Assembly (NCBI GenBank): GCA_017881265.1
Contig: JADGRA010000062.1
Location: forward strand, 1-64,000
DNA: 64,000 nt
Reading direction: 5' to 3'
Origin: Myxococcaceae bacterium
Lineage (GTDB): Bacteria; Myxococcota; Myxococcia; Myxococcales; Myxococcaceae
The notes under the pieces were generated by a model, which did not search any database, was not told the DNA's origin, and saw only the letters and a list, made by a program, of their open reading frames with translations. How positions within the stretch are numbered: position 1 is the stretch's first letter; each line of letters starts with the position of its first letter. Shown piece after piece: positions 3,071 to 59,177 of this stretch. The position numbers were made by a program, and so were the translations under genes.

Positions 3071-3800
3071 GGGCCTTCTGGACGAGCGCCCGGTACAGCC
3101 CGAGCTGCAGCGGCATGCTTTGCAGCAGCAGCTCCGGGTGCCACTGGACGCCCACGGCGAAGGGGTGCTCCGTGGATTCGATGGCTTCCACCACCCCGTC
3201 CGGGGAGGAGGCGCCCACCCGCAGCGTCGGCGCCAGGCGGGAGACGGCCTGGTGGTGCGTGGAATTCACCATCAGCTGTCCGCGGCCCAGCACGTCGGCC
3301 AGCGTCGAGCCCTCGCGCACCTCCACCGGGTGGCTGGGCTGCGTCCGGTCCGTGCGCTGCTCGTGCTCCTTGGCGCCAGGAAGCTCGCGGCGCAAGTCCT
3401 GGTAGAGCTCCCCGCCGAGGACGACGTTGAGCAGCTGCATGCCGCCGCAGATGGCCAGTATGGGCAACTTGCGCCGCAGCGCCGTCTGCAGCACCAGCGT
3501 CTCGAAGGCCGTGCGGCCGGGCTTGAGCGGGCCGAGCCCCTCTTTCGGGGCCTGCCCGTAGGCCTCCGGCGGGATGTCGAAGGCCCCGCCCGTCACCACC
3601 ACGCCGGCCACCCGGTCCAGGTAGGCTTCCACCACGGACGCTTCGCTGCTGAGCGGAAGCACCAGAGGCAGGCCCCCGGCGCGCAGCACGGCATCCGCGT
3701 AGGCCGTCTTGACGACGTAGCGGGAGACGTCCCCTTCGGCCTCCACGTCCGGGGTAATGCCCACCACGGGGCGACGCAGCGCAATGCCGTGCGGTCTCAC
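3054..3800 (-). CDS. Class-I glutamine-amidotransferase-like hydrolase (PuuD / gamma-glutamyl-GABA hydrolase family)
   Basis: Predicted cytosolic hydrolase of gamma-glutamyl amide bonds. The opening RRPVVGITPDVE and the triad context fit peptidase family C26: nucleophile Cys in LAICGGMQLLNV and the His/Glu pair in VGVQWHPELL. About 248 residues, normal for the family. It starts with GTG overlapping the thiE stop by four bases and overlaps thiD by 17, so it lies inside a thiamine operon and may have a thiamine-salvage or amide-hydrolysis role; that is inference from position. The substrate cannot be read from sequence. Confidence 0.85.
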   Translation of the reverse strand: MRPHGIALRRPVVGITPDVEAEGDVSRYVVKTAYADAVLRAGGLPLVLPLSSEASVVEAYLDRVAGVVVTGGAFDIPPEAYGQAPKEGLGPLKPGRTAFETLVLQTALRRKLPILAICGGMQLLNVVLGGELYQDLRRELPGAKEHEQRTDRTQPSHPVEVREGSTLADVLGRGQLMVNSTHHQAVSRLAPTLRVGASSPDGVVEAIESTEHPFAVGVQWHPELLLQSMPLQLGLYRALVQKARETRR

Positions 3801-4447
3801 GCGTCCGGTATGCCTCGTTCCTGGACGCCGCGCAGGAATTCTTCCTGCAGTAGGCGCGCCCGCCCGGCAATGTCCTCGGCGCCGAGCAAGTCCGACACCA
3901 CCGCGGCCCCGTGGGCCCCGGCCCGGGCCACGCCGCGCATGGACGCAAGCCCAATGCCGCCGATGGCCACCACCGGCAGCGGACTTGCGACCACCACCCG
4001 GGCCAGCCCCGCAAGGCCGAGGAGGGGCGCCTCCACCTGCTTACTTCTCGGGGGGAAGATGGGGCCGAGGCCGACGTAGTCCGCCCCGGCGGCCCGGGCC
4101 GCCTGCGCCTCCTCGGCGCTGCGCACCGTCACCCCCACCAGCGCCTGCGGGCCCAACAGCTGGCGGGCCTCCTCCGGCCGGAGGTCCTCCTCGCCCACAT
4201 GGACGCCATCGGCATGGGACAGCAGCGCCCAGTCCACCCTGTCATTGATGAGAAGCAGGGCCCGGGCGGCGCGGGCCTGCGCCACCGCCTGTCGGGCGAG
4301 GGCCACTGCGGCCGCACCCTGGGTGCGCTTCAGCCGCAGCTGCAGCACGCGCACCCCGCCCGAGAGCAGTGCCTGGATTTGCGCCAGCACGGGCATTTCG
4401 GGGCGGGCCGTGTCGTCAGCCAGGGCGTAGAGGCCAGGGGGAAACAT
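3797..4447 (-). CDS. thiE: Thiamine-phosphate synthase
   Basis: TIM-barrel enzyme joining HMP-diphosphate and thiazole phosphate to give thiamine monophosphate. Diagnostic stretches are GGVRVLQLRLKR, LLINDRVDWALLSHADGVHVGEEDL, GADYVGLGPIFPPRSK and VVAIGGIG. At 216 residues it is the expected size. ATG 4447 is the first gene of the reverse thiE / amidotransferase-like / thiD operon. No recognisable TPP riboswitch (thi-box) is seen upstream, only a GC-rich hairpin. Confidence 0.93.
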   Translation of the reverse strand: MFPPGLYALADDTARPEMPVLAQIQALLSGGVRVLQLRLKRTQGAAAVALARQAVAQARAARALLLINDRVDWALLSHADGVHVGEEDLRPEEARQLLGPQALVGVTVRSAEEAQAARAAGADYVGLGPIFPPRSKQVEAPLLGLAGLARVVVASPLPVVAIGGIGLASMRGVARAGAHGAAVVSDLLGAEDIAGRARLLQEEFLRGVQERGIPDA

Positions 4448-7159: not shown

Positions 7160-7987
7160 CTATTTGGCCTGCGGGACGGGATTGCCGTCCGCATGGGGAA
7201 TGGGCACGAACACGGCATTGCCCTTGTCGTCCTTGCGCTCGGCGAAGCTGCCCTGCAGGCAGACGCCTTCCACAATGTCGTACTTGCGCGCGCGCTGGCG
7301 AAAGTAAATGCGCGTCGTCTTCCAGGGCGCGGTCAGCACGTGGGGCGCAATAATCTCCAGGTCGTCGTGCAGGACATCGGCTGCAGCCAGGTGGATGCGC
7401 TCGATGACGTGCAGGTCGCCGTTGTTGGGAATGCCGACCGCCTCGCTGACGGCCAGGTAGGCCTGGGGCAGCACCCCGATGGTGTCCACCACCAGGGTGT
7501 CGCCTTCCCAGTGGCCGATGGAGTGGCCGTGAAACGTCGGGTCCGGGTCTGCTGGGTGGGGGCGCCCGTCGGTGTAGATGCGCCGCAGGCGGTTCCCGTC
7601 CATCTCCCCGAGGATGGTGACTCGTCCCGGCGTGAAGAGGAACTCGAAGGCATTGTGGGTGATGAGCATCCAGGTGGGCATGCCCTCCGGGAGGCAGTCG
7701 ATGAAGAGCCCCTTCGGCCGCCCGGCCTTCTCCTCCGCCACCATGGCGGCAATCTGCTCGGCCACCTTCGGCTGCCAGGGCACCGGGTCGGTCCTGATGC
7801 GCTTGTCCTGGTCGGAGATGTAGGGCGTCCACACCCCGCTCCAGTCGGGAAGCTTGGCAATGGCGGCCCAGGCGCCCGGCTTGGGCGGAGGGTTGACCGT
7901 TCCTGTGGCCTGTTCCTCGGCGCGCAGCGGGCCTGCGAGCGACAAGACCGCGGCCGCGAGGAGCACAGCGCGTTTCCATCGGTTCAT
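7160..7987 (-). CDS. Secreted hypothetical protein, partner of DUF6152-type gene
   Basis: 275 residues. Signal peptide MNRWKRAVLLAAAVLSLAGPLRAEE, then PDWSGVWTPYISD (a motif common in secreted proteins of this group) and a beta-rich body containing HGHSIGHWEGDTLVVDTIGV. GGGGGAAAGC precedes ATG 7987. I recognise the type from its pairing with DUF6152 genes but cannot give an enzyme activity. Probably the first gene of a two-gene operon. Confidence 0.75.
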   Translation of the reverse strand: MNRWKRAVLLAAAVLSLAGPLRAEEQATGTVNPPPKPGAWAAIAKLPDWSGVWTPYISDQDKRIRTDPVPWQPKVAEQIAAMVAEEKAGRPKGLFIDCLPEGMPTWMLITHNAFEFLFTPGRVTILGEMDGNRLRRIYTDGRPHPADPDPTFHGHSIGHWEGDTLVVDTIGVLPQAYLAVSEAVGIPNNGDLHVIERIHLAAADVLHDDLEIIAPHVLTAPWKTTRIYFRQRARKYDIVEGVCLQGSFAERKDDKGNAVFVPIPHADGNPVPQAK

Positions 7988-8037
7988 GCTTTCCCCCAAC
8001 GTCGGTCTCCGGAGCCGAAGGCGAACTCATTTCCGGC

Positions 8038-8515
8038 TCGCCAGTCAAACGCTTGTCAGTGGCGGTACGTTTCGGACGAGACCTGTCGGCGTGGTTTGCG
8101 GCCGATGGGCGAACGGTCCACTTCAGCGCTGCATGGGCCGGAGGCCCCCCCAAGTCTACACGATGACGGTCGATTCACCGGAGTTTCGACCGCTCGGCTT
8201 TGGAGACGCTCAATTGCTGTCGGTCTCGTCTTCGGGCGAGCTCGCGCTCTTCCTTCGTCCCAAGTCGGATGGCTTCGCCCGAGGGTCGGGCACGCTCGCC
8301 CGAGTCGCGGCCATGGGAGGGACACCGCGCGAACTCGCAACCCAGATCGAGGACGCCGACTGGGCACCTGACGGAGACTGCATGGCTGTCGTACGATTCG
8401 ACGGAGTTCGTAGCCGCCTCGAATTCCCCATCGGCCATGTGCTCTTCGATTCGAGCGGTCGAATAAGCAGTCCTAGAGTCTCACCCTCCGCCGACCGCGT
8501 TGCGTTCGTGGACAG
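8038..8515 (+). pseudogene. Frameshifted fragment of a protein-kinase-linked PD40/TolB-like beta-propeller domain
   Basis: In the frame of base 8041 the sequence reads VKRLSVAVRFGRDLSAWFAADGRTVHFSAAWAGGPP. After a run of seven C at about 8144-8151 the homology continues one frame over as QVYTMTVDSPEFRPLGFGDAQLLSVSSSGELALFL, then GGTPRELATQIEDADWAPDGDCMAVVRF, SRLEFPIGHVLFDSSGRISSPRVSPSADRVAFVDR. These are the consecutive blades found C-terminal to Ser/Thr kinases in myxobacteria and acidobacteria. One extra C would restore a single frame. Both ends are missing: there is no kinase domain upstream, and homology stops near 8515. The gene is therefore a remnant. Confidence 0.75.
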
Positions 8516-8610
8516 GATGCATATTGCGTCGGCTGCCGAGGCGACCAGGACGACGAACAGGCAGGATTTCCCCCTCCGAGAGACCGGCAACGCTTGAACC
8601 TGGAACAACA

Positions 8611-8660
8611 GCCTTTGACGCCGGAAGTCACGGGTTCAAGTCCCGAACTCCCCGCTTCCA
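8611..8660 (+). other. tRNA-like 3' end (T-arm plus acceptor-like strand)
   Basis: CGGGTTCAAGTCCCG (8631-8645) has a 4-bp stem around TTCAAGT, which fits the T-loop consensus, and is followed by CCCCGCTTCCA, resembling a tRNA or tmRNA acceptor end. The D-arm is absent, the anticodon-like stem pairs poorly and the spacing from T-arm to CCA is about two to three bases too long. It is not a functional tRNA; it could be an attachment-site scar or chance. Confidence 0.25.
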
Positions 8661-8782
8661 AATCGTTGAACTTGCTGCGGGTTTCTGAGGCGTGCGAAGT
8701 GTCCGCCACGGATCCGCCACGACCACCCCGCTCCATAGTGGTCCGGGTCGGGAGGGCCAGCGGCCCAGCGCGAGCCGCAAGC

Positions 8783-9940
8783 TCAGGCCCCCCACACCTC
8801 GCGCAAAAGGCGCAGGAAGTTTCCCCCGAGCACCTTGGCGATTTGCAAGCTGGAGTACTGGCGCGCGCTCAAGAGCTCCGCCAGACGCTCGAAGCGGTTT
8901 GCCACATTGAGATCCGGAACGAAGGTGTAGACATTCGCGTCCTCGCCGGGCGCCGCAATGCCCAACTTCTTGCGCTCCTTCACTTCGTCGGCAAACTTCC
9001 TCTGGAATTCCGGCGTCACCGCCACGGGCGAAATGGAGCCGTCCGTCCCGACGCCCACGTGGTCTTCCCCACAGACGTCCAAGGCGTGCTGGAGGTGGCG
9101 GAGGACATCCTCGGCCATGGGCTGTCCTTGGGTGCGCAGGTATGGCATGAGGTAGATACCCACGTAGCCGCCACGCTCTGCCAGCTTGCGCAACTCGGCG
9201 TCCGTCTTGTTGCGAGGGTGTGGCGCGACGGCGGCACAGCCGGTGTGCGAGATGGCCACCGGCTGCCTTGAGGCGTCGATTGCCTCCAGGGTGGTGCGCT
9301 CGCCGGCATGGGACAGGTCCACCAGCGCCCGGCGGGCATTCAGCCGGGCGATAAGCTTTCGCCCGAACTCGGAGAGGCCCGCGTTACCCGGCTCCATGCA
9401 GCCGTCGCCGACGAGGTTGCGGCGGTTATACGTGAGCTGAAAAATCCGGATGCCAAGGTTCCAGAAAGTGTCCACGCGCTCCAAGTCCTCGCCCAAGGGC
9501 GTCGTGTCCTGAAAGCCGTAAATGAGTCCCAGCTGGCCGCTGCGTTTGGCGGCGACGACGTTGGCCGCCGTGCGGACTTCTAGAAGGACGTCGGGGTGCG
9601 CCGCCACTTGCGCACTCCAGTAGGCCAAGTTGCGGATGGTTCTGTCGTAGTCGACCGCGTAGCTGCCCACGCCGCTGACGGTGAGATTTACGGCCGTGAG
9701 GCCGGAGGCGCGGACGTCCGAGAGGGCGCCGGCGCTGAGGGGCGCGAAGTCGTCGCTGCCATAGACACCTGGGCCGCCGAGCGAATCGATGACCACCGCC
9801 TCGCGGTAGCCGGGCCAGCCGGTCGCCTTGGCAGGCGCGGCACGCACGGCACCACGCCACAGGGAGGCCGTGGACGCGATCCCCAACAGGGACAGAAAGG
9901 TGCGGCGCGGGAAGAGACGCGGCATGGGGCGCTGAGGCAT
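8783..9940 (-). CDS. Tat-exported peptidase M19 (membrane dipeptidase-like), variant metal site
   Basis: 385 residues. The N-terminus FPRRTFLSLLGIAS is a twin-arginine signal. The amidohydrolase barrel matches M19: DVLLEVRTAANVVAAKRSGQLGLIYGFQD, RRALVDLSHAG, PVAISHTGC, GYVGIYLMPYL and DHVGVGTDG. The renal-dipeptidase His-x-Asp near the start is replaced by IDSLGG, and the bridging Glu position appears as Gln (GFQD), while the two later His residues (DLSH, ISH) are kept. It may bind one metal or act on an unusual substrate. Divergent from the downstream CocE-type hydrolase by about 130 bases. Confidence 0.85.
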   Translation of the reverse strand: MPQRPMPRLFPRRTFLSLLGIASTASLWRGAVRAAPAKATGWPGYREAVVIDSLGGPGVYGSDDFAPLSAGALSDVRASGLTAVNLTVSGVGSYAVDYDRTIRNLAYWSAQVAAHPDVLLEVRTAANVVAAKRSGQLGLIYGFQDTTPLGEDLERVDTFWNLGIRIFQLTYNRRNLVGDGCMEPGNAGLSEFGRKLIARLNARRALVDLSHAGERTTLEAIDASRQPVAISHTGCAAVAPHPRNKTDAELRKLAERGGYVGIYLMPYLRTQGQPMAEDVLRHLQHALDVCGEDHVGVGTDGSISPVAVTPEFQRKFADEVKERKKLGIAAPGEDANVYTFVPDLNVANRFERLAELLSARQYSSLQIAKVLGGNFLRLLREVWGA

Positions 9941-52314: not shown

Positions 52315-53433
52315 ATGAGCCTTCTCTTCGTCCGAGAGCCGGCCGTTGTCGTCCGAACACGTTCTGTGAAATTCGGGCCGACGAGCAGTTCTTCGTTCGG
52401 AGTGGACGTGAGACAGGCGGTCCTCGATTGGTTCCAAGCGCAGGGCATCTCGCCGAAGGCGAATCGGGCGATGGTGCTCAAGACCATCGTCCTGGTCAGC
52501 GGGGTCGCTGCAGCGTACGGCTCAATCCTCGCGAGCGGTGTCCCTTGGTCGGCCCGTTGGTGCAGCTGTGTCTTCTTGGGTCTGGGCCTGGCCAGCCTCG
52601 GGATGGCCATTGGTCATGACGCTCTGCACGGCGCCTACTCGAACCGTCCGTGGGTCAATCGTCTCCTGGGGCTGGCGTTCGACGTGGCGGGGGCGAACGG
52701 ACACATTTGGAAATTCACCCACAACGTCGTTCACCACACCTATACGAACGTCGACGGCGTCGACATGGACATCGACCTGGACCCGCTCGTCCGAATGGCT
52801 GCGTCGACGCGCTGGAAACCGTACCACCGCTACCAGCGCTTCTATGCGTTCGGGCTCTACGCCCTCGCGGCCATCCACTGGTTCCTCGCGAAGGACTTCG
52901 TCTACTTCGCCCGCCGGCGACTCGGCCCCTACTTGACGCTACGCCACCGGTGGACGGCGTGGGCGGGCCTCGTCGGCGGGCGGATGCTGGTGCTCTTCTA
53001 CTCGGTGGTCCTCCCCGCCTGGGTGCTCCGTCCGGCCTGGTGGATGTTTCTCATCGGCTGGCTGACCGTCTACCTGACGTTCGGCTTGGTGCTGGGAGTG
53101 ACCTTTCAGCTGGCGCACGCAGTCACCCCGGTCGAGATGCCGGTGCCGCCCGGGAGCGGCCGACTGGAGGCTTTTGCCCTCCACCAGGTGAACACCACAG
53201 CGGACTTTGCCTGCGCCAACCGGCTGCTCACCTGGTACTTGGGCGGTCTCAACTTTCAAGTGGAGCACCACCTGTTCCCTGAAGTCTGCAGCATCCATTA
53301 CCCTCGCTTGCGGCACATCGTGCGGGAAGTCGCCGCCCGCCACGGCGTGCGGTGCCGCGAGTTCCCGACGGTGCGCTTGGCGCTGGCCTCGCACGTTCAG
53401 CACCTGCGGCAACTGGGCCGCGCTCCGAACTAG
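52315..53433 (+). CDS. Membrane fatty-acid desaturase (delta-6/acyl-lipid type)
   Basis: 372 residues. Front-end style desaturase without cytochrome b5. Three histidine boxes for the di-iron centre: HDALHG near 101, HNVVHH near 137 and QVEHHLFP near 315, with intervening helices. VKFGPTSSSSFGVDVRQAVLDWFQAQGIS is the typical N-terminus. Introduces a double bond into acyl chains; position specificity is not readable. A hairpin immediately after its stop separates it from the following gene cluster. Confidence 0.93.
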   Translation: MSLLFVREPAVVVRTRSVKFGPTSSSSFGVDVRQAVLDWFQAQGISPKANRAMVLKTIVLVSGVAAAYGSILASGVPWSARWCSCVFLGLGLASLGMAIGHDALHGAYSNRPWVNRLLGLAFDVAGANGHIWKFTHNVVHHTYTNVDGVDMDIDLDPLVRMAASTRWKPYHRYQRFYAFGLYALAAIHWFLAKDFVYFARRRLGPYLTLRHRWTAWAGLVGGRMLVLFYSVVLPAWVLRPAWWMFLIGWLTVYLTFGLVLGVTFQLAHAVTPVEMPVPPGSGRLEAFALHQVNTTADFACANRLLTWYLGGLNFQVEHHLFPEVCSIHYPRLRHIVREVAARHGVRCREFPTVRLALASHVQHLRQLGRAPN

Positions 53434-53465
53434 GCGCTTTGTGGAGGCCGCTCCACCAAAGCGCC
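53433..53465 (+). terminator. Terminator-like hairpin after desaturase gene
   Basis: GGCGCTTTGTGGAG (53433-53446) pairs with CTCCACCAAAGCGCC (53451-53465) around the loop GCCG, with one bulged base. A T-run is absent, as is common in GC-rich myxobacterial terminators. The next 210 bases before the PLP-enzyme gene show no gene and may hold its promoter. Confidence 0.7.
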
Positions 53466-53675
53466 GACCGTCCGCTTGAAAGTCGCGGCAGTCCGCACAA
53501 CCTCCCCTCTCCGCTTGCGGTCGGTCCCGCTGCTCGTGGCGAGACTTCATTCACAGCGCTCCGCGTAAACGCGTTTGTCGTGGCCGTTTCGGCAGGTGGG
53601 TCGCCAGACTTGACGTCGAGCCTCGAGCGGCGCCCGACGGCAGGGCGAAGAAGCGGAGGGCTCTGTTGTGGATGG

Positions 53676-54791
53676 GTGAGCCGCAGGACACGAAAGGCGA
53701 TTGGCAACGTGCAAAGCGCAGCAACAGTGTTTGAGGCGCCCCGGTCCGAGAACAGTCTGTCCTGGGCCCGGCACTCCTGGCGCGGGGGCGAGTTGGCGGA
53801 GCGACTGCGGAACGCTCCGAGGGTGAACCTTGGGTCATGGCCGACGCCCATCCAGCGAGTCACCCGACGCGGCCGGTGCGACCTGCTCGTCAAGCGAGAC
53901 GACCTCAGCGGCTTCGGCCGTGGGGGCGCGAAGACGCGAAAGCTGAGTCACCTGCTCGGGCACGTACGCACCAATGCTCATGGCGAGCTGCTGGCGGTGG
54001 CCGGAAACGTGACCAACTTGGCGTTCGACCTGTTGCAGGCCTCCGGAGCTTTCGGACTTCGGACGCGCCTCTTCATCGTCAACGACCCGCCCGCCACACC
54101 GGGCGAGCGGGCGAGAATCTTCGCCGGCGTCCTGGGTTCCATCGAACTCTTGACGTGCGGCAGGGCCGAGGCGGCGGCGGTCGTCTTGCGCGCCTACGCA
54201 GCTGCCTGGCACGCCGGTCGGAAGCCCTTCCTTGCGCTGCCTGGCGCTTTCCACCCGGCGTGCGTCATCGGCAACGCGTGCGGTTTCCTCGAGATGGTCG
54301 AGCAACTCGAATCCCAAGGCGCACCCTTGCCTCGCACCGTGTTCGTGACGGCAGCCACCGGCACGACGGTCGCGGGGTTTCTCCTGGCTGCGGACGTGCT
54401 TCGCGCTGCAGGCGGTCCCCCCATCCGGGTGATTGGCGTGCAAGTGCACCCAGGCCGAATCCGGCTGCAGACGCTGGCCCTGACACGATGGACGGAGCGC
54501 TTCCTCGGCACCAATCATCGCACGCCGGTTCACCCGACGAGTTTCGTTCCGTCTCGCGAGCGCTTCGCCCACTTCGGACCTGGCGTTCCGCGTCTTTGCT
54601 TGCAGGTGGAGCAGGAACTCGGGCTCAGGCTGGACCCCATTTTTGGGGGAAAGACCTGGCAGGCAATGCAGGCCGACGTGGCCGCCAACGCTCCCGACGA
54701 CCGGCCGCTCCTCTACTGGCACTGCGGTTACACGCCGGAGTGGAAGACGCTCTGTGCCTCCGGAGCGGGGCGGGGCGAGGTGACGTCGTGA
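53676..54791 (+). CDS. Divergent fold-type II PLP enzyme (ACC deaminase / D-cysteine desulfhydrase family)
   Basis: About 371 residues if GTG 53676 is used (start uncertain; the open frame extends to 53352). LGSWPTPIQRVTRRGRCDLLVKRDDLSGFGRGGAKTRKLSHLL carries the PLP lysine in GGAKTRKL. Relatives usually have GGNKxRKL and a QSNHxR loop; here these read GGAK and AGNVTNLAFD. A phosphate-binding loop FVTAATGTTVAGF is present. The changes suggest a new substrate. First gene of the coupled lipid cluster; its stop overlaps the next start as GTGA. Confidence 0.82.
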   Translation: MSRRTRKAIGNVQSAATVFEAPRSENSLSWARHSWRGGELAERLRNAPRVNLGSWPTPIQRVTRRGRCDLLVKRDDLSGFGRGGAKTRKLSHLLGHVRTNAHGELLAVAGNVTNLAFDLLQASGAFGLRTRLFIVNDPPATPGERARIFAGVLGSIELLTCGRAEAAAVVLRAYAAAWHAGRKPFLALPGAFHPACVIGNACGFLEMVEQLESQGAPLPRTVFVTAATGTTVAGFLLAADVLRAAGGPPIRVIGVQVHPGRIRLQTLALTRWTERFLGTNHRTPVHPTSFVPSRERFAHFGPGVPRLCLQVEQELGLRLDPIFGGKTWQAMQADVAANAPDDRPLLYWHCGYTPEWKTLCASGAGRGEVTS

Positions 54792-56224
54792 GACTGCAGG
54801 CGCTCGCCTTGGTGCCGTCGGGCCGGTTCGGCATCCGGCGGTTCGCTGTGGTCGCCGGCTACGTGTTGGTTTTCACCATCGCCTTGCCCGTCCAGGTGTG
54901 GGCGCTGGGGACACGGCTGGATGCGTTGCTTCACCTGCCAGCCATCAATGGCCTGCGCACGCCAGGGCTTGTTCTTCTGTCCGCGGGCGCTGCCTTGTGG
55001 TTGACCGCCCACGTCTGGTTCAGCGCCGCCGGCCGTGGGTTGCCCATTTCGAGCCTGCCTCCGATGCGCCTCGTCAAGAGCGGGCCCTACGCGTGGCTCC
55101 GCCATCCCATCTACGTCGGCTTCACCGTGGCGGCCGCCGGGCTCGGCTGTGCCAAGGGGTCCCTGGGACACGGGCTTCTGGCCCCCCTCCTCCTGGCAAC
55201 CGCCTGTTGGGCCTACGTGGTGACGTTGGAGGGACCCGCGTTGTGGAGACGCTTCGGCCAGGGCTACCACCAGGTGGGCCGCGGCACCGCCTGGAAGCTG
55301 CCCTGGACGCGGGGCTGGCCTCGGCTCCACGCTGCCGTGGAACGCCTCGCCAATCGAACGGTTCTCTTCCGGGTCGGTCCCACGCTGTGGGTAACCTACG
55401 GCGCCTTCGTAGCGTTCGGGTCGTTTCTGGTCACGCTCTTCGCGCGCGTGACGCTGGGTACGTTGTGCTCGTCATGGCAGTACGTCGGGGTTTCCATCGG
55501 TCTGGCGCTGTCGATGTCGGTGGGCGCGCGACTCGGCTCAGTTGCTTACAACGTGGCGGCTCTGCGACGGCGCGGGCTTTCTGAGCTGCGCACCGTCGGA
55601 TTCGTCTCCTGGGGCGGGTATCTCGGCCTGGCGGCTTTCACCGCTTTCTTTGGTGCTCGCACCGGGATTTCTTCTCTCGCGGTTCTCGACCGCCTCATGC
55701 CACTGCTCTGCGTGTGCACTGCGTTGGGGCGGGTGGGCTGCCTCACCTACGGGTGCTGTTTCGGACGACCCGCGCCCCACGGCGTGCGCTGGACGAATCC
55801 GGACGCGAAGGTGGTGCGGTTGCTTGGACCTGAAGTCGGCTCCCTGCCCCGCGTCCCGGTGCAGCTGCTCGGGACGGTGGTGGGCCTCGTCGCCGCCGGC
55901 GCGGCGCTCGTCCTCAACCTGCGGAACGGCGCCGCCGGGGCGACGACGTTCCTCGTGTGGCTCTGGTATTTCCTCGTCCGGCTGAGCATCGAGCAGCTGC
56001 GGGACGAGCCACGCCTCGGTTTGCTCGCCTGGACGCGCGGCCAGTGGCTCGCTGCTATCGGGGCAGGCGTCTCGCTGGTGTCGCTCATGCGCCTGGATGC
56101 GAGTGCCACGGTAACCGCCACACATGGCTCGCTCGACCTGCTGGCGCTGGCAACGGCCACCACCGTCGGCGCGATGGTCTTCGCCATCTTCGGCCTTCAC
56201 TGGCGCCAGGTCGGGAGGTGGTGA
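54788..56224 (+). CDS. Fusion: ICMT/phospholipid-methyltransferase-like domain + prolipoprotein diacylglyceryl transferase (Lgt)-like domain
   Basis: 478 residues, polytopic. The N-terminal half has four helices and MRLVKSGPYAWLRHPIYVGFTVAAAGLG near 92-117, the SAM-binding signature of isoprenylcysteine and lipid methyltransferases. The C-terminal half (about 190-470) has Lgt-like helices with LCVCTALGRVGCLTYGCCFGRPAPHGVRW near 307-335 and a PVQLLGTVVGLVAAGAALVL and RLSIEQLRDEPR end. In Lgt these stretches bind phosphatidylglycerol. GTG start overlaps the PLP gene by four bases. I know of no such fusion, so the product may methylate and acyl-transfer within one membrane substrate. Neither half matches a fully canonical active site. 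Confidence 0.8.
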   Translation: MRLQALALVPSGRFGIRRFAVVAGYVLVFTIALPVQVWALGTRLDALLHLPAINGLRTPGLVLLSAGAALWLTAHVWFSAAGRGLPISSLPPMRLVKSGPYAWLRHPIYVGFTVAAAGLGCAKGSLGHGLLAPLLLATACWAYVVTLEGPALWRRFGQGYHQVGRGTAWKLPWTRGWPRLHAAVERLANRTVLFRVGPTLWVTYGAFVAFGSFLVTLFARVTLGTLCSSWQYVGVSIGLALSMSVGARLGSVAYNVAALRRRGLSELRTVGFVSWGGYLGLAAFTAFFGARTGISSLAVLDRLMPLLCVCTALGRVGCLTYGCCFGRPAPHGVRWTNPDAKVVRLLGPEVGSLPRVPVQLLGTVVGLVAAGAALVLNLRNGAAGATTFLVWLWYFLVRLSIEQLRDEPRLGLLAWTRGQWLAAIGAGVSLVSLMRLDASATVTATHGSLDLLALATATTVGAMVFAIFGLHWRQVGRW

Positions 56225-56226
56225 GG

Positions 56227-57039
56227 ATGGTCTTCGACAAGCTCTACGCGGACCTCGTTGCTCCAGACGGCTCCGTGTACGTGCTGTACCTGGCGAGTTT
56301 CGACCTCTTCGGGGGCCGGTTGCGCTTCGCGGAGCTCGAGACCTATCCCGCCGACGGCCGCCGCCGGGTCTATACCGCGCGACCCTCGGCGTCCCATCGC
56401 ACCACGCTCGCCAGTGACGAGCCGCTCGACGTCGCGCTCGAGACCTCCGTGGGCCAGTTCCGCTTTCGGTCGACGCCTCTGAACGGGGGCTTCGTGCCGC
56501 CGGACACTGCGCGGTCCGGGCTGGAGTGGAGGGTCTGCATGGGCCGCACGCAGGCCCGACTCGAGCTGCCGCCGGCGCTCGGCGGCGGCTCGGTCGGTGG
56601 GACTGGCTACGTCGACCACCTCAGAGTGGAACAACCGACCCTTCGCCGCGGTCTGCGGACGCTCGACTGGGGTCGGGCGCATCTTTCGAGCTCGACGGTC
56701 GTCTGGACCCGATTGCGCTTCTCCGACGGGGACGTCTGGGACCAGTTCGCCCGCTGGACCGCCCTCGGGACCCCTGCGGAGCCCGGTCCCCTCAGCCCCT
56801 CAGAGGACCTGGCGCTCGCCCAGATTGAGACAGCCGGTGGCACCATTGCGTCTGAACGCGTCTTGCACGAGGGCGGCGCCATTGACCGAAGCCGTCTCCC
56901 GGTGGCCCCGGTCCGCTGGCTGCTGAAGGCAGCGGCCGGGCGCACGCACCAGCGCCGCTACCTGACGCGCATTTCCGAGCCAGGCCACCCTGGCGCTGGC
57001 TGGGGAATCCATGAATCCGTCTCCTTCGAGCACGCCTGA
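56227..57039 (+). CDS. CrtC/AttH-like lipocalin-type protein
   Basis: 270 residues. Start ATG 56227 with GGGAGGTG inside the previous gene. The motif GGGSVGGTGYVDHLRVEQPTLRRGLRTLDWGRAHLSSSTVVWTRLRF near 120-170 matches the conserved GxGYxDH and WGR blocks of carotenoid 1,2-hydratase (CrtC) and AttH-like double-lipocalin proteins. No signal peptide or membrane helix. It may bind or hydrate a lipidic olefin. It overlaps the ABC ATPase gene by 29 bases. Confidence 0.65.
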   Translation: MVFDKLYADLVAPDGSVYVLYLASFDLFGGRLRFAELETYPADGRRRVYTARPSASHRTTLASDEPLDVALETSVGQFRFRSTPLNGGFVPPDTARSGLEWRVCMGRTQARLELPPALGGGSVGGTGYVDHLRVEQPTLRRGLRTLDWGRAHLSSSTVVWTRLRFSDGDVWDQFARWTALGTPAEPGPLSPSEDLALAQIETAGGTIASERVLHEGGAIDRSRLPVAPVRWLLKAAAGRTHQRRYLTRISEPGHPGAGWGIHESVSFEHA

Positions 57040-57655
57040 GGCCGCCGTGCTCGACGCCGAAGACCTCCACAAGCGCTACGGACGGAACCAGGTGCTTCGC
57101 GGTGCCAGCCTGCGGGTTTGGCCTGGGGGCCTGGTCGCGGTGCTCGGCGAAAACGGGGCTGGCAAGAGCACGCTGCTGCGCATCCTCGCCGGTGCCGAAG
57201 CTCCGGACCGGGGGCGCGTGCGTCACCAGGGGTCCGTTGGGTACTGCCCACAGGAGCCGCTCCTGTACGGGCAATTGACGCTGGACGAGCACTTTCGCCT
57301 CTTCGGCGCCGCCTACCGCCTTCCGAGCGCGGAGCTGCGCAGGCGCGGCGAGAGGTTGATTGAGCGGTTTGGTCTCGAACGTCACCGCCGCACGCCGGTC
57401 GAGGCGCTGAGCGGCGGGACCCGACAGAAGCTCAACCTGGCCGTGGCGCTGCTGCGCGATCCGGCGGTGCTCCTGCTGGACGAACCCTACTCAGGCTTCG
57501 ACCGCGACGCCTATCGCCAATTCATCTTGTGGACCGAGGAGGCCAAGCGCCGCGCTCAGGCGGTCGTCCTCATCACCCACTTGCTGCTCGAGCCGGGGCA
57601 CTTCGATGTCGCGCTGGAGCTGCGCGACGGGAAGCTGGAGGTTGCCGATGGCTGA
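57011..57655 (+). CDS. ABC transporter ATP-binding protein
   Basis: 214 residues. Walker A GENGAGKSTLL near 46, Q-loop in YCPQEPLLYG, signature LSGGTRQKLNLA, Walker B VLLLDEPYSGFD, and switch His in VLITHLLLE. The ATPase half of a transporter whose permease is the next gene (8-base overlap). The arrangement matches ABC-2-type exporters; the cargo is probably a lipid from this cluster. Confidence 0.93.
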   Translation: MNPSPSSTPEAAVLDAEDLHKRYGRNQVLRGASLRVWPGGLVAVLGENGAGKSTLLRILAGAEAPDRGRVRHQGSVGYCPQEPLLYGQLTLDEHFRLFGAAYRLPSAELRRRGERLIERFGLERHRRTPVEALSGGTRQKLNLAVALLRDPAVLLLDEPYSGFDRDAYRQFILWTEEAKRRAQAVVLITHLLLEPGHFDVALELRDGKLEVADG

Positions 57656-59177
57656 CAGCCTTAACCGCGTGGCCGTCGCCGCAGCACTGCTCTTCCGTGA
57701 CGTCTTCCGTCGACGTTTCGCCTTGGTCCTCATCTTCGTTGTTCCGGCACTCTTCGATACCGTGGTGCTGCTCACCACGACCTCCCGGCCCCTCCGGGTG
57801 ACCGTCGCGGCACTTCGCGAGGACCTGGCTGACGGGACAAACCCTGGTGGCACACCTCTCGACCTGGGGGTCATCGACGACGGCGTTCGCGCACTGGATC
57901 AGCGGCAGCTGTCGCTCGTCTTCCTTGGGCACGCTGCGGTCTGCTTTCTTGCCTGCTTTCTCGCCTTCAACCTCGTGTCACGGCGGCGGGAAGTGGACAG
58001 AAGGCTCGTGCTCGCCGGATACCGGACGGTCGAGGTGCTCCTGGCCAAGGTGGCCGTCCTTGGGCTCATCGTCGTCCTGCTCGTCGGCTGGCAGACGGCA
58101 CTGATTGTGCCGTGGCTCGCGCCGCGACAGCCCGCGCTGCTCTCGCTGGGGCTTCTGCTCGGCGGCCTCACCTATGGAGGCATCGGTCTCCTCATTGGCG
58201 CGGTGGTAAGGCAGGAACTCGAGGGGATTTTTCTCATCGTCCTGTCGACGAATGTCGACCCGGGCTGGCTCCAGAACCCCATCTATTTTGGTCAGAGCCA
58301 ACGTCCCCAGCTCATCTCCGCCCTGCCGGGCTTTGCCTCGACGCAGCTCACGGTGCTGGGGGCCTTCTTCGAGGATTGTCCGCAAGCGCTCGTTTCTCAG
58401 GGGGTGCTGTCCTGCGGCGCCATCCTGGTCCTGGCCGTGACGCTCTTCGGCCTTCGCATTCGGCCACCACGCGCCACCGGCGAGCGGACCCGGGCCCGAC
58501 TCCGTTTCGGAAAGACGCTGCTCGTGGGCTACGCGCTGTGGATTGCCGCCTTCGAGTTGGTGGGGCGCTACGCGTCGACGCTGCAGACGCGTGACCTGAC
58601 CACGGCGTGGGACCGCGCCATCCCCCTCGTCCCGGCGTTCATCTGGCCGTACGAGGCTTGCTACGCGCTACCGCTGGTCGCGCTCTGGCTGTTCCGGGAC
58701 TGGCATCGGTTCAACGTCGGCCTACTCGCCATCCTGCTCGCCAGCCTGTGTGCCTTCGCTGTCTACCTGTTTGTCCCGGTCGCCTTCCCGCGGCCGGTCC
58801 TCGGCACGGGTGTGCCCGAGCAGCTGCTGGCGGCCGAGTACGCGGCCGACTTCTTCCCGGGCGCCAACAAGCTCCCCAGCCTTCATGTCGCCATCTCGTG
58901 GATTGTGTTGTTTTCCGTCTGGGGGCAGGCGAGGCACCGGACGGTGGACCTGCTGGCGCTTGCGCTGGTCAGCGCCATCACGGCTTCCACGCTCCTGGTG
59001 AAACAACACCTGCTGCTCGACGTCGTGACCGCCGTGCCGCTGGCTGCTGCCGTCTTCGCAATCGCCCACCGGCTGTATTGGAGGGTCACCGCGCCCGGGG
59101 ACCCTCCGGAAACCGCCCTGGTTCAGTTGCTCGTGCCCACGTCCTGGCGTCGACTGCAAAGGCGGCCATCCCCATGA
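57648..59177 (+). CDS. Fusion: ABC-2-type permease + PAP2 (inositol phosphorylceramide synthase-like) domain
   Basis: 509 residues. The first roughly 290 residues form a six-helix permease-like region (VFRRRFALVLIFVVPALFDTVVLL, GHAAVCFLACFLAFNLVSRRREVDRRLVLAGYRTVEVLLAKV), the latter part resembling the ABC-2 coupling segment. The C-terminal 200 residues form a PAP2_3-like six-helix domain: KLPSLHVAISWIVLFSVW near 408 (first His) and TLLVKQHLLLDVVTAVPLA near 450 (second His, Asp), matching the C2 and C3 motifs of inositol phosphorylceramide synthases. The membrane protein therefore couples transport with phosphate-head-group transfer or cleavage. I do not know this fusion from other systems. 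Confidence 0.83.
   Translation: MADSLNRVAVAAALLFRDVFRRRFALVLIFVVPALFDTVVLLTTTSRPLRVTVAALREDLADGTNPGGTPLDLGVIDDGVRALDQRQLSLVFLGHAAVCFLACFLAFNLVSRRREVDRRLVLAGYRTVEVLLAKVAVLGLIVVLLVGWQTALIVPWLAPRQPALLSLGLLLGGLTYGGIGLLIGAVVRQELEGIFLIVLSTNVDPGWLQNPIYFGQSQRPQLISALPGFASTQLTVLGAFFEDCPQALVSQGVLSCGAILVLAVTLFGLRIRPPRATGERTRARLRFGKTLLVGYALWIAAFELVGRYASTLQTRDLTTAWDRAIPLVPAFIWPYEACYALPLVALWLFRDWHRFNVGLLAILLASLCAFAVYLFVPVAFPRPVLGTGVPEQLLAAEYAADFFPGANKLPSLHVAISWIVLFSVWGQARHRTVDLLALALVSAITASTLLVKQHLLLDVVTAVPLAAAVFAIAHRLYWRVTAPGDPPETALVQLLVPTSWRRLQRRPSP

Follow-up and report, generated by a model that had tools for sequence, protein, structure and literature searches.

Prolipoprotein diacylglyceryl transferase (Lgt) is an N-out membrane enzyme that is regarded as fixed in its orientation, facing the periplasm and serving lipoproteins only, and it is an antibiotic target. 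Glycerolipids with amino-acid head groups methylated by SAM are made by betaine-lipid BtaA/BtaB and by other amino-glycerolipid routes, which are alike in idea to the pathway proposed below but rely on different enzyme families. The active site of canonical Lgt lies toward the periplasm, and substitutions of H103 inactivate the E. coli enzyme (PMC4728403). Trp occupies position 103 in Actinobacteria Lgts, Trp or Tyr is found there in accepted Lgts, and Asn146 is Cys in Leptospira Lgt (PMC13251419); the residue roles used here are those given for E. coli Lgt in these two papers.

Within the window, that is, the whole analysed stretch of 64,000 nucleotides from a Myxococcaceae bacterium, a gene at 54788..56224 (+ strand) encodes a protein of 478 aa in which an ICMT/PEMT-type methyltransferase domain precedes an Lgt-family domain (LGT). 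The author of the preliminary description of this DNA did not know the combination from described enzymes. Our searches of the open-access literature returned no LGT-ICMT fusion, no LGT-PAP2 fusion and no inverted Lgt. The architecture is real and conserved, without a description in the papers searched, and the fusion is widespread, with more than 30 relatives in several phyla, none of which ties it to a known function.

An intact two-domain protein

The reading frame extends from a GTG at 54788 to the stop at 56224 with zero internal stops; its first codon shares bases with the stop codon of the preceding gene (GTGA), and the ATG of the next gene (56227) lies two bases past its end. GC content by codon position is nearly equal in the two halves (0.68/0.56/0.85 in one, 0.67/0.54/0.82 in the other), so the join shows no trace of a shift in frame. 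A chance or frameshift join was therefore ruled out by the intact frame, the similar codon-position GC and the conservation of the fusion in other genomes, and the continuous ORF reported earlier is confirmed.

The methyltransferase core (55052..55261, +; aa 89-158) carries GPYAWLRHPIYVG and E148...RFGQGY and was aligned with ICMT 5vg9, and the two transmembrane helices upstream of aa 89 are part of the same domain. The protein has the RHP.Y.G ... E ... FG..Y motif of ICMT/PEMT methyltransferases and passes the Pfam curated cut-offs for PEMT (PF04191; aa 94-158, 33.9 bits, cut-off 25) and ICMT (PF04140; aa 89-116, 26.7 bits, cut-off 24), PEMT being the better-scoring family; against the NCBIfam model of ICMT proper (isopcys_mtase) it reaches 13.1 bits, below the equivalog cut-off of 160. 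It resembles the ICMT/PEMT enzymes (4a2n, 5vg9) in its GPY..RHP.Y.G and E...FG..Y elements, its four-helix core and its predicted cytosolic SAM side, but differs from them in being fused to an LGT domain. The latter (55361..56086, +; aa 192-433) matches PF01790 with 83.1 bits (curated cut-off 24.9) and falls below both NCBIfam lgt equivalog cut-offs (54.1 vs 334 and 39.9 vs 118.9 bits). A profile built from the family, run against solved structures, recovers 5azb, E. coli Lgt (E 4e-13), as well as the ICMT 4a2n (E 0.003); the AlphaFold model of the fusion (pLDDT 82), a check that the preliminary description had proposed, matches 5azb only (Foldseek E 3e-5, TM 0.63 on target). Both domain identities assigned earlier thus stand, and the two domains are confirmed to form one intact protein.

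A residue map of the LGT domain onto E. coli Lgt equates Y204 with Y26, W275 with H103, R315 with R143, C318 with N146, C323 with E151, R398 with R239 and E402 with E243. Kept in the window protein (E. coli numbering) are Y26, G27, R73, G99, G104, G142, R143, G145, G154, Y235, R239, E243 and R246; H103 is changed to Trp, N146 and E151 to Cys and E202 to Gly, and the changes H103>W, N146>C and E151>C are also seen in other Lgts. Within the set essential to Lgt (Y26, H103 (H/Y/W), R143, N146, G154 and R239), Y26, R143, G154 and R239 are unchanged, with H103W and N146C as the substitutions. Of the residues singled out earlier for checking, the His of HGG is therefore absent, with Trp at 103, and Arg143 and Arg239 are present. 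The signature motif of Lgt is found as a Cys variant, GRVGCLTYGCCFG (55727..55765, +), which is shared with the genome's own housekeeping Lgt; the GCC motif was ruled out as a mark of a new enzyme, being common in other LGTs including this one.

The genome holds exactly one other LGT match, located in an ileS-lspA-lgt run on another contig (C63). This housekeeping Lgt (L001 1201-2526; 441 aa) carries the Cys-type signature motif GRLGCFSAGCCWGRP and has Tyr at the His103 position, with FYGG instead of HGG, like other genomes of the phylum. A housekeeping role for the fusion was ruled out by this separate, normal lgt beside lspA. Of 15 tested genomes that bear the fusion or U (the partner gene described below), 14 had a further LGT. 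In the Aminicenantes MAG G145 (2.0 Mb assembly), the source of locus L042, the fusion is the only LGT found and a canonical lgt was not seen, possibly because the MAG is incomplete.

Relatives and gene neighbourhood

A single-sequence scan of genome contigs returned zero relatives, and an alignment-based scan found them, which ruled out that the fusion is unique to this genome. Besides the window, 24 fusions came from same-order genomes and then all named species genomes, with more in later searches; their sources include Myxococcota, Acidobacteriota, Bacteroidota, Planctomycetota, Ignavibacteriota, Pseudomonadota (Woeseiaceae) and candidate phyla. Nearly all relatives contain about 175 extra residues in the middle, yielding an ICMT-PAP2-LGT protein of about 640 aa; PAP2_3 was detected in this stretch with 46-49 bits in three of five tested three-domain proteins and was unrecognisable in the other two. 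The fusions of the window and of L042 lack the PAP2 stretch and are two-domain proteins.

In addition to a quick tree, a careful tree of 43 rows was built, in which a branch with 100/100 support separates the fusions and three Neomarinimicrobiota solo LGTs from the other rows. Because the window and L042 form long branches, their exact place within this clade is unsure. The fusion differs from Lgt in belonging to a separate clade and in not lying beside lspA. The solo LGTs (L043 2948-3895, L044 7905-8915 and L078 7905-8915) have Trp103 and loop charges that are likewise reversed. The LGT genes of L044 and L078 are followed by an FAD monooxygenase-like gene and a 262-aa gene with no Pfam match. 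A PLP-enzyme-like gene beside these two LGTs was suspected by eye to be kin of the window PLP enzyme, and its score gave no support.

The catalytic residues are unevenly kept within the family. R143, R239, E243 and R246 are retained in the three-domain relatives and, with the GCC motif, across nearly all members, but the three-domain proteins mostly show Y26H, R73A/G, G99P and G145R, with position 235 variable. Most of them also lack the Arg of RHP and have lost the ICMT C-terminal motif, two elements that the window protein retains. Given these losses, part of the family may catalyse neither reaction.

The most constant companion of the fusion is partner gene U (56227..57039, +; 270 aa in the window), a gene of about 260 aa with a KWY.D motif that adjoins the fusion in practically every locus. 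None of 20 U members matched a relevant Pfam family, and no sequence relatives of U were found in the PDB. The model of U (pLDDT 80) nevertheless matches 2ich (Foldseek E 1.4e-8, probability 1.00, with a TM-score of only 0.40-0.49) and resembles AttH, pericyclases, kievitone hydratase and phosphosteroid lyase, likewise with moderate TM-scores. In its predicted fold U resembles the AttH/CrtC-like lipocalin-fold proteins, but it is shorter (about 270 aa instead of 320-380), bears the KWY.D motif and has no detectable Pfam or PDB sequence family.

A U profile search gave matches in 11 of 195 genomes of the window's phylum, 8 strong matches in 346 genomes of the Mangrovimonas phylum, 3 of 199 in the phylum of L042 and 1 of 349 in that of L085, counts that include the genomes which supplied the profile. 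Of the 11 U genes in the window's phylum, 10 lie next to ICMT-LGT and the remaining one next to an ICMT-acyltransferase fusion, and all eight strong Bacteroidota matches adjoin a three-domain fusion; since the loci behind the profile were themselves found through the fusion, these figures may leave out divergent U genes that have other partners. A partial U in L201 (phylum of L042) has no fusion seen nearby. In L035, two equal-scoring U copies (1115-1909 and 3095-3889) are separated by about 2 kb, and behind the first there is only an ICMT-domain fragment, which suggests a recent tandem duplication or an assembly artefact. Directly upstream of U, two Bacteroidota (L062 4935-5792 and L198 5462-6376) have a gene of about 285-300 aa with a similar N-terminus and no Pfam match, and a third, L194, has an Rce1-like CAAX protease gene (7923-8861, -) beside U and a three-domain fusion, a single case.

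Downstream of U, the window encodes an ABC transporter ATPase (57011..57655, +) and an ABC-2 type permease with a C-terminal PAP2_3 domain (57648..59177, +; PAP2 at about 58662-59060). The ATPase is homologous to those beside the fusion or the ICMT-acyltransferase relative in L042, L062 and L046, and the ATPases and permeases of all four loci are mutually homologous (26-46% identity); the pair is missing from most three-domain loci. PAP2 is the C-terminal half of the ABC permease in the window and lies inside the ICMT-LGT protein in relatives; the domain has apparently changed its host protein within the module. The ICMT domain is elsewhere fused to a PlsC-type acyltransferase, beside ABC genes in L046 (345-1958) and beside U in L050 (437-2110) and L170 (9959-11536, -). 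What recurs among the loci is ICMT together with U, while the glycerolipid-handling domain is interchangeable and a dedicated exporter is present in some. A scramblase-family gene (PF03803; L038 7058-7675, -) was observed directly downstream of one three-domain fusion.

Upstream of the fusion lies a PLP-dependent enzyme (PALP; 53352..54791, +; domain at about 53829-54449) whose true start is inside the ORF and whose nearest NCBIfam models, all below cut-off, are ACC deaminase, CoM synthesis XcbE and D-cysteate sulfo-lyase. Other loci have other PLP enzymes, a class-III aminotransferase in L050 and an Orn/DAP decarboxylase in L170, and in most three-domain loci none was seen. The partial ORF with which L042 begins looked by eye like a class-III aminotransferase, an identity that gained no support. 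A fatty acid hydroxylase family protein (PF04116; 59174..59938, +, start inferred) ends the packed gene run, and a fatty acid desaturase (PF00487; 52315..53433, +) lies upstream; both are only candidate members of the conserved module. A plasmid search gave zero matches, and a defence system was ruled out because the PADLOC models of known anti-phage systems had 0 matches.

Predicted membrane topology

To compare orientation, K+R residues were counted per residue in the loops assigned after E. coli Lgt, excluding conserved catalytic residues, and helices were counted with a simple hydropathy scan and in the AlphaFold model. In 83 other LGTs the values are 0.193 for the canonical-cytoplasmic loops, 0.067 for the periplasmic loops and 0.054 for the head, and in the same order they are 0.060/0.167/0.158 for the two two-domain fusions, 0.019/0.088/0.112 for 25 three-domain fusions and 0.025/0.135/0.189 for the Neomarinimicrobiota solo LGTs. 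The difference in charge pattern between the fusion clade and the other LGTs has a Mann-Whitney p of 1.7e-14, which is indicative only since the rows are related. In the window protein alone the reversal is modest (4 K/R in 49 vs 5 in 33 residues), and the prediction of inversion is stronger for the clade than for this protein taken singly.

Helix parity points the same way. By its charges (0.131 vs 0.051 K+R per residue) the ICMT half reads as N-in/C-in, the arrangement needed for a cytosolic SAM site. No hydrophobic segment interrupts the linker, which has nine K/R among its 52 residues, and an eighth helix of the LGT domain brings the tail back to the inside. From the reversed charge pattern of the clade and the helix parity we strongly infer that the LGT domain is inverted, with its predicted active site facing the cytosol, as the SAM site does. 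The fusion thus shares with Lgt the fold, Y26/R143/Y235/R239/E243/R246 and the position of the signature motif, but in place of the N-out, seven-helix arrangement with a periplasm-facing site it has reversed loop charges, an eighth helix, a fused ICMT domain and, by prediction only, a cytosolic site. The earlier suggestion that methylation and diacylglyceryl transfer meet at one membrane site would fail for a normal Lgt, whose site is periplasmic, and becomes plausible given the predicted inversion.

Proposed function and alternatives

An LGT with its site in the cytosol would not encounter exported prolipoproteins, and its likely acceptor is a small molecule of the cytosol or the head group of a lipid in the inner leaflet. 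We propose that the fusion is a diacylglyceryl transferase/methyltransferase facing the cytosol that modifies an acceptor other than a protein, the product then being exported by the ABC pair, and we give this model, whose chemistry and substrate are inferred from sequence, a probability of about one half. In this model the protein spans the membrane with about 12 helices and has both of its catalytic domains on the cytoplasmic side. Its inverted Lgt relative would take the diacylglyceryl group from inner-leaflet phosphatidylglycerol, the expected donor because R143 and R239 are kept, and pass it to the thiol or hydroxyl of a small cytosolic acceptor, perhaps an amino-acid-like head group from the neighbouring PLP enzyme. 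The N-terminal domain would methylate this head group with SAM, and U may act as a cytosolic lipocalin-like protein that binds the hydrophobic compound so formed or changes it chemically. Flipping or export would fall to the dedicated ABC-2 transporter, and PAP2 would work on the outer side of the membrane. Our confidence is moderate that the protein tailors a lipid rather than modifies lipoproteins, and weak for the head group and the order of steps, the amino head group in particular because the PLP enzymes vary between loci and are mostly missing beside three-domain proteins. Only tentatively do we extend this to the flipped clade at large, as cytosolic diacylglyceryl transferases that, with the fused methyltransferase, the lipocalin-like partner and an ABC flippase, might make an undescribed glycerolipid scattered in many phyla, for example a methylated amino-acid or S-glyceryl-cysteine lipid.

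Modification of lipoproteins is disfavoured: the genome has a normal ileS-lspA-lgt locus on another contig, and the LGT site is predicted to be cytosolic. A narrower form of it, in which a normally oriented LGT lipidates a subset of lipoproteins and ICMT methylates something on or near them, would suit the largely intact catalytic residues of the window LGT, with a Cys variant as in the genome's own Lgt, and the extra lgt copies known in some bacteria (PMC13251419). It is nonetheless quite unlikely, given the charge pattern and helix parity, the lack of lspA in a gene run whose associated genes concern lipids and transport, and the sporadic distribution (11/195 genomes of the phylum). That the LGT domain is a non-catalytic, lipid-binding scaffold would explain why several essential residues are lost in three-domain relatives, yet with R143, R239, E243, R246 and GCC kept in nearly all members and most of the active site intact in the window, this appears very improbable.

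Two further schemes keep both activities. Following the S-lipid cysteine logic of yeast a-factor, LGT could form a thioether diacylglyceryl-cysteine on a small peptide or amino acid whose carboxyl ICMT would methylate before ABC export as a signal. The family chemistries fit in sequence, Lgt forming a thioether on Cys and ICMT methylating S-lipidated Cys; the ABC-2 pair is present, the window PLP enzyme is nearest to models of ACC deaminase, D-cysteine desulfhydrase and cysteate lyase, and the L194 protease is Rce1-like. However, the packed, overlapping genes leave no room for a precursor peptide between them, the Rce1-like link is one instance and most three-domain loci lack the exporter, which makes the scheme rather unlikely. 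We judge equally doubtful that the LGT-type domain hydrolyses or remodels phosphatidylglycerol, releasing or moving diacylglycerol among lipids with PAP2 or PlsC and without a special head group, as ICMT/PEMT methylates a phospholipid amine. The recurrence of PAP2 and PlsC-type acyltransferase as alternative partners, the higher PEMT score and the scramblase-family gene of L038 agree with it, but it leaves the AttH/CrtC-like U unexplained.

If the proposed model of a cytosol-facing transferase is true, a clade of reversed topology, fused to a methyltransferase, has put Lgt chemistry to a second use on the opposite membrane face, which points to an undescribed bacterial lipid or lipid signal. 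Annotations as 'prolipoprotein diacylglyceryl transferase' in many phyla may then cover proteins that do not modify lipoproteins. Locus L062 belongs to Mangrovimonas sp. TPBH4, a named strain rather than a metagenome bin, so that the model may be testable in culture.
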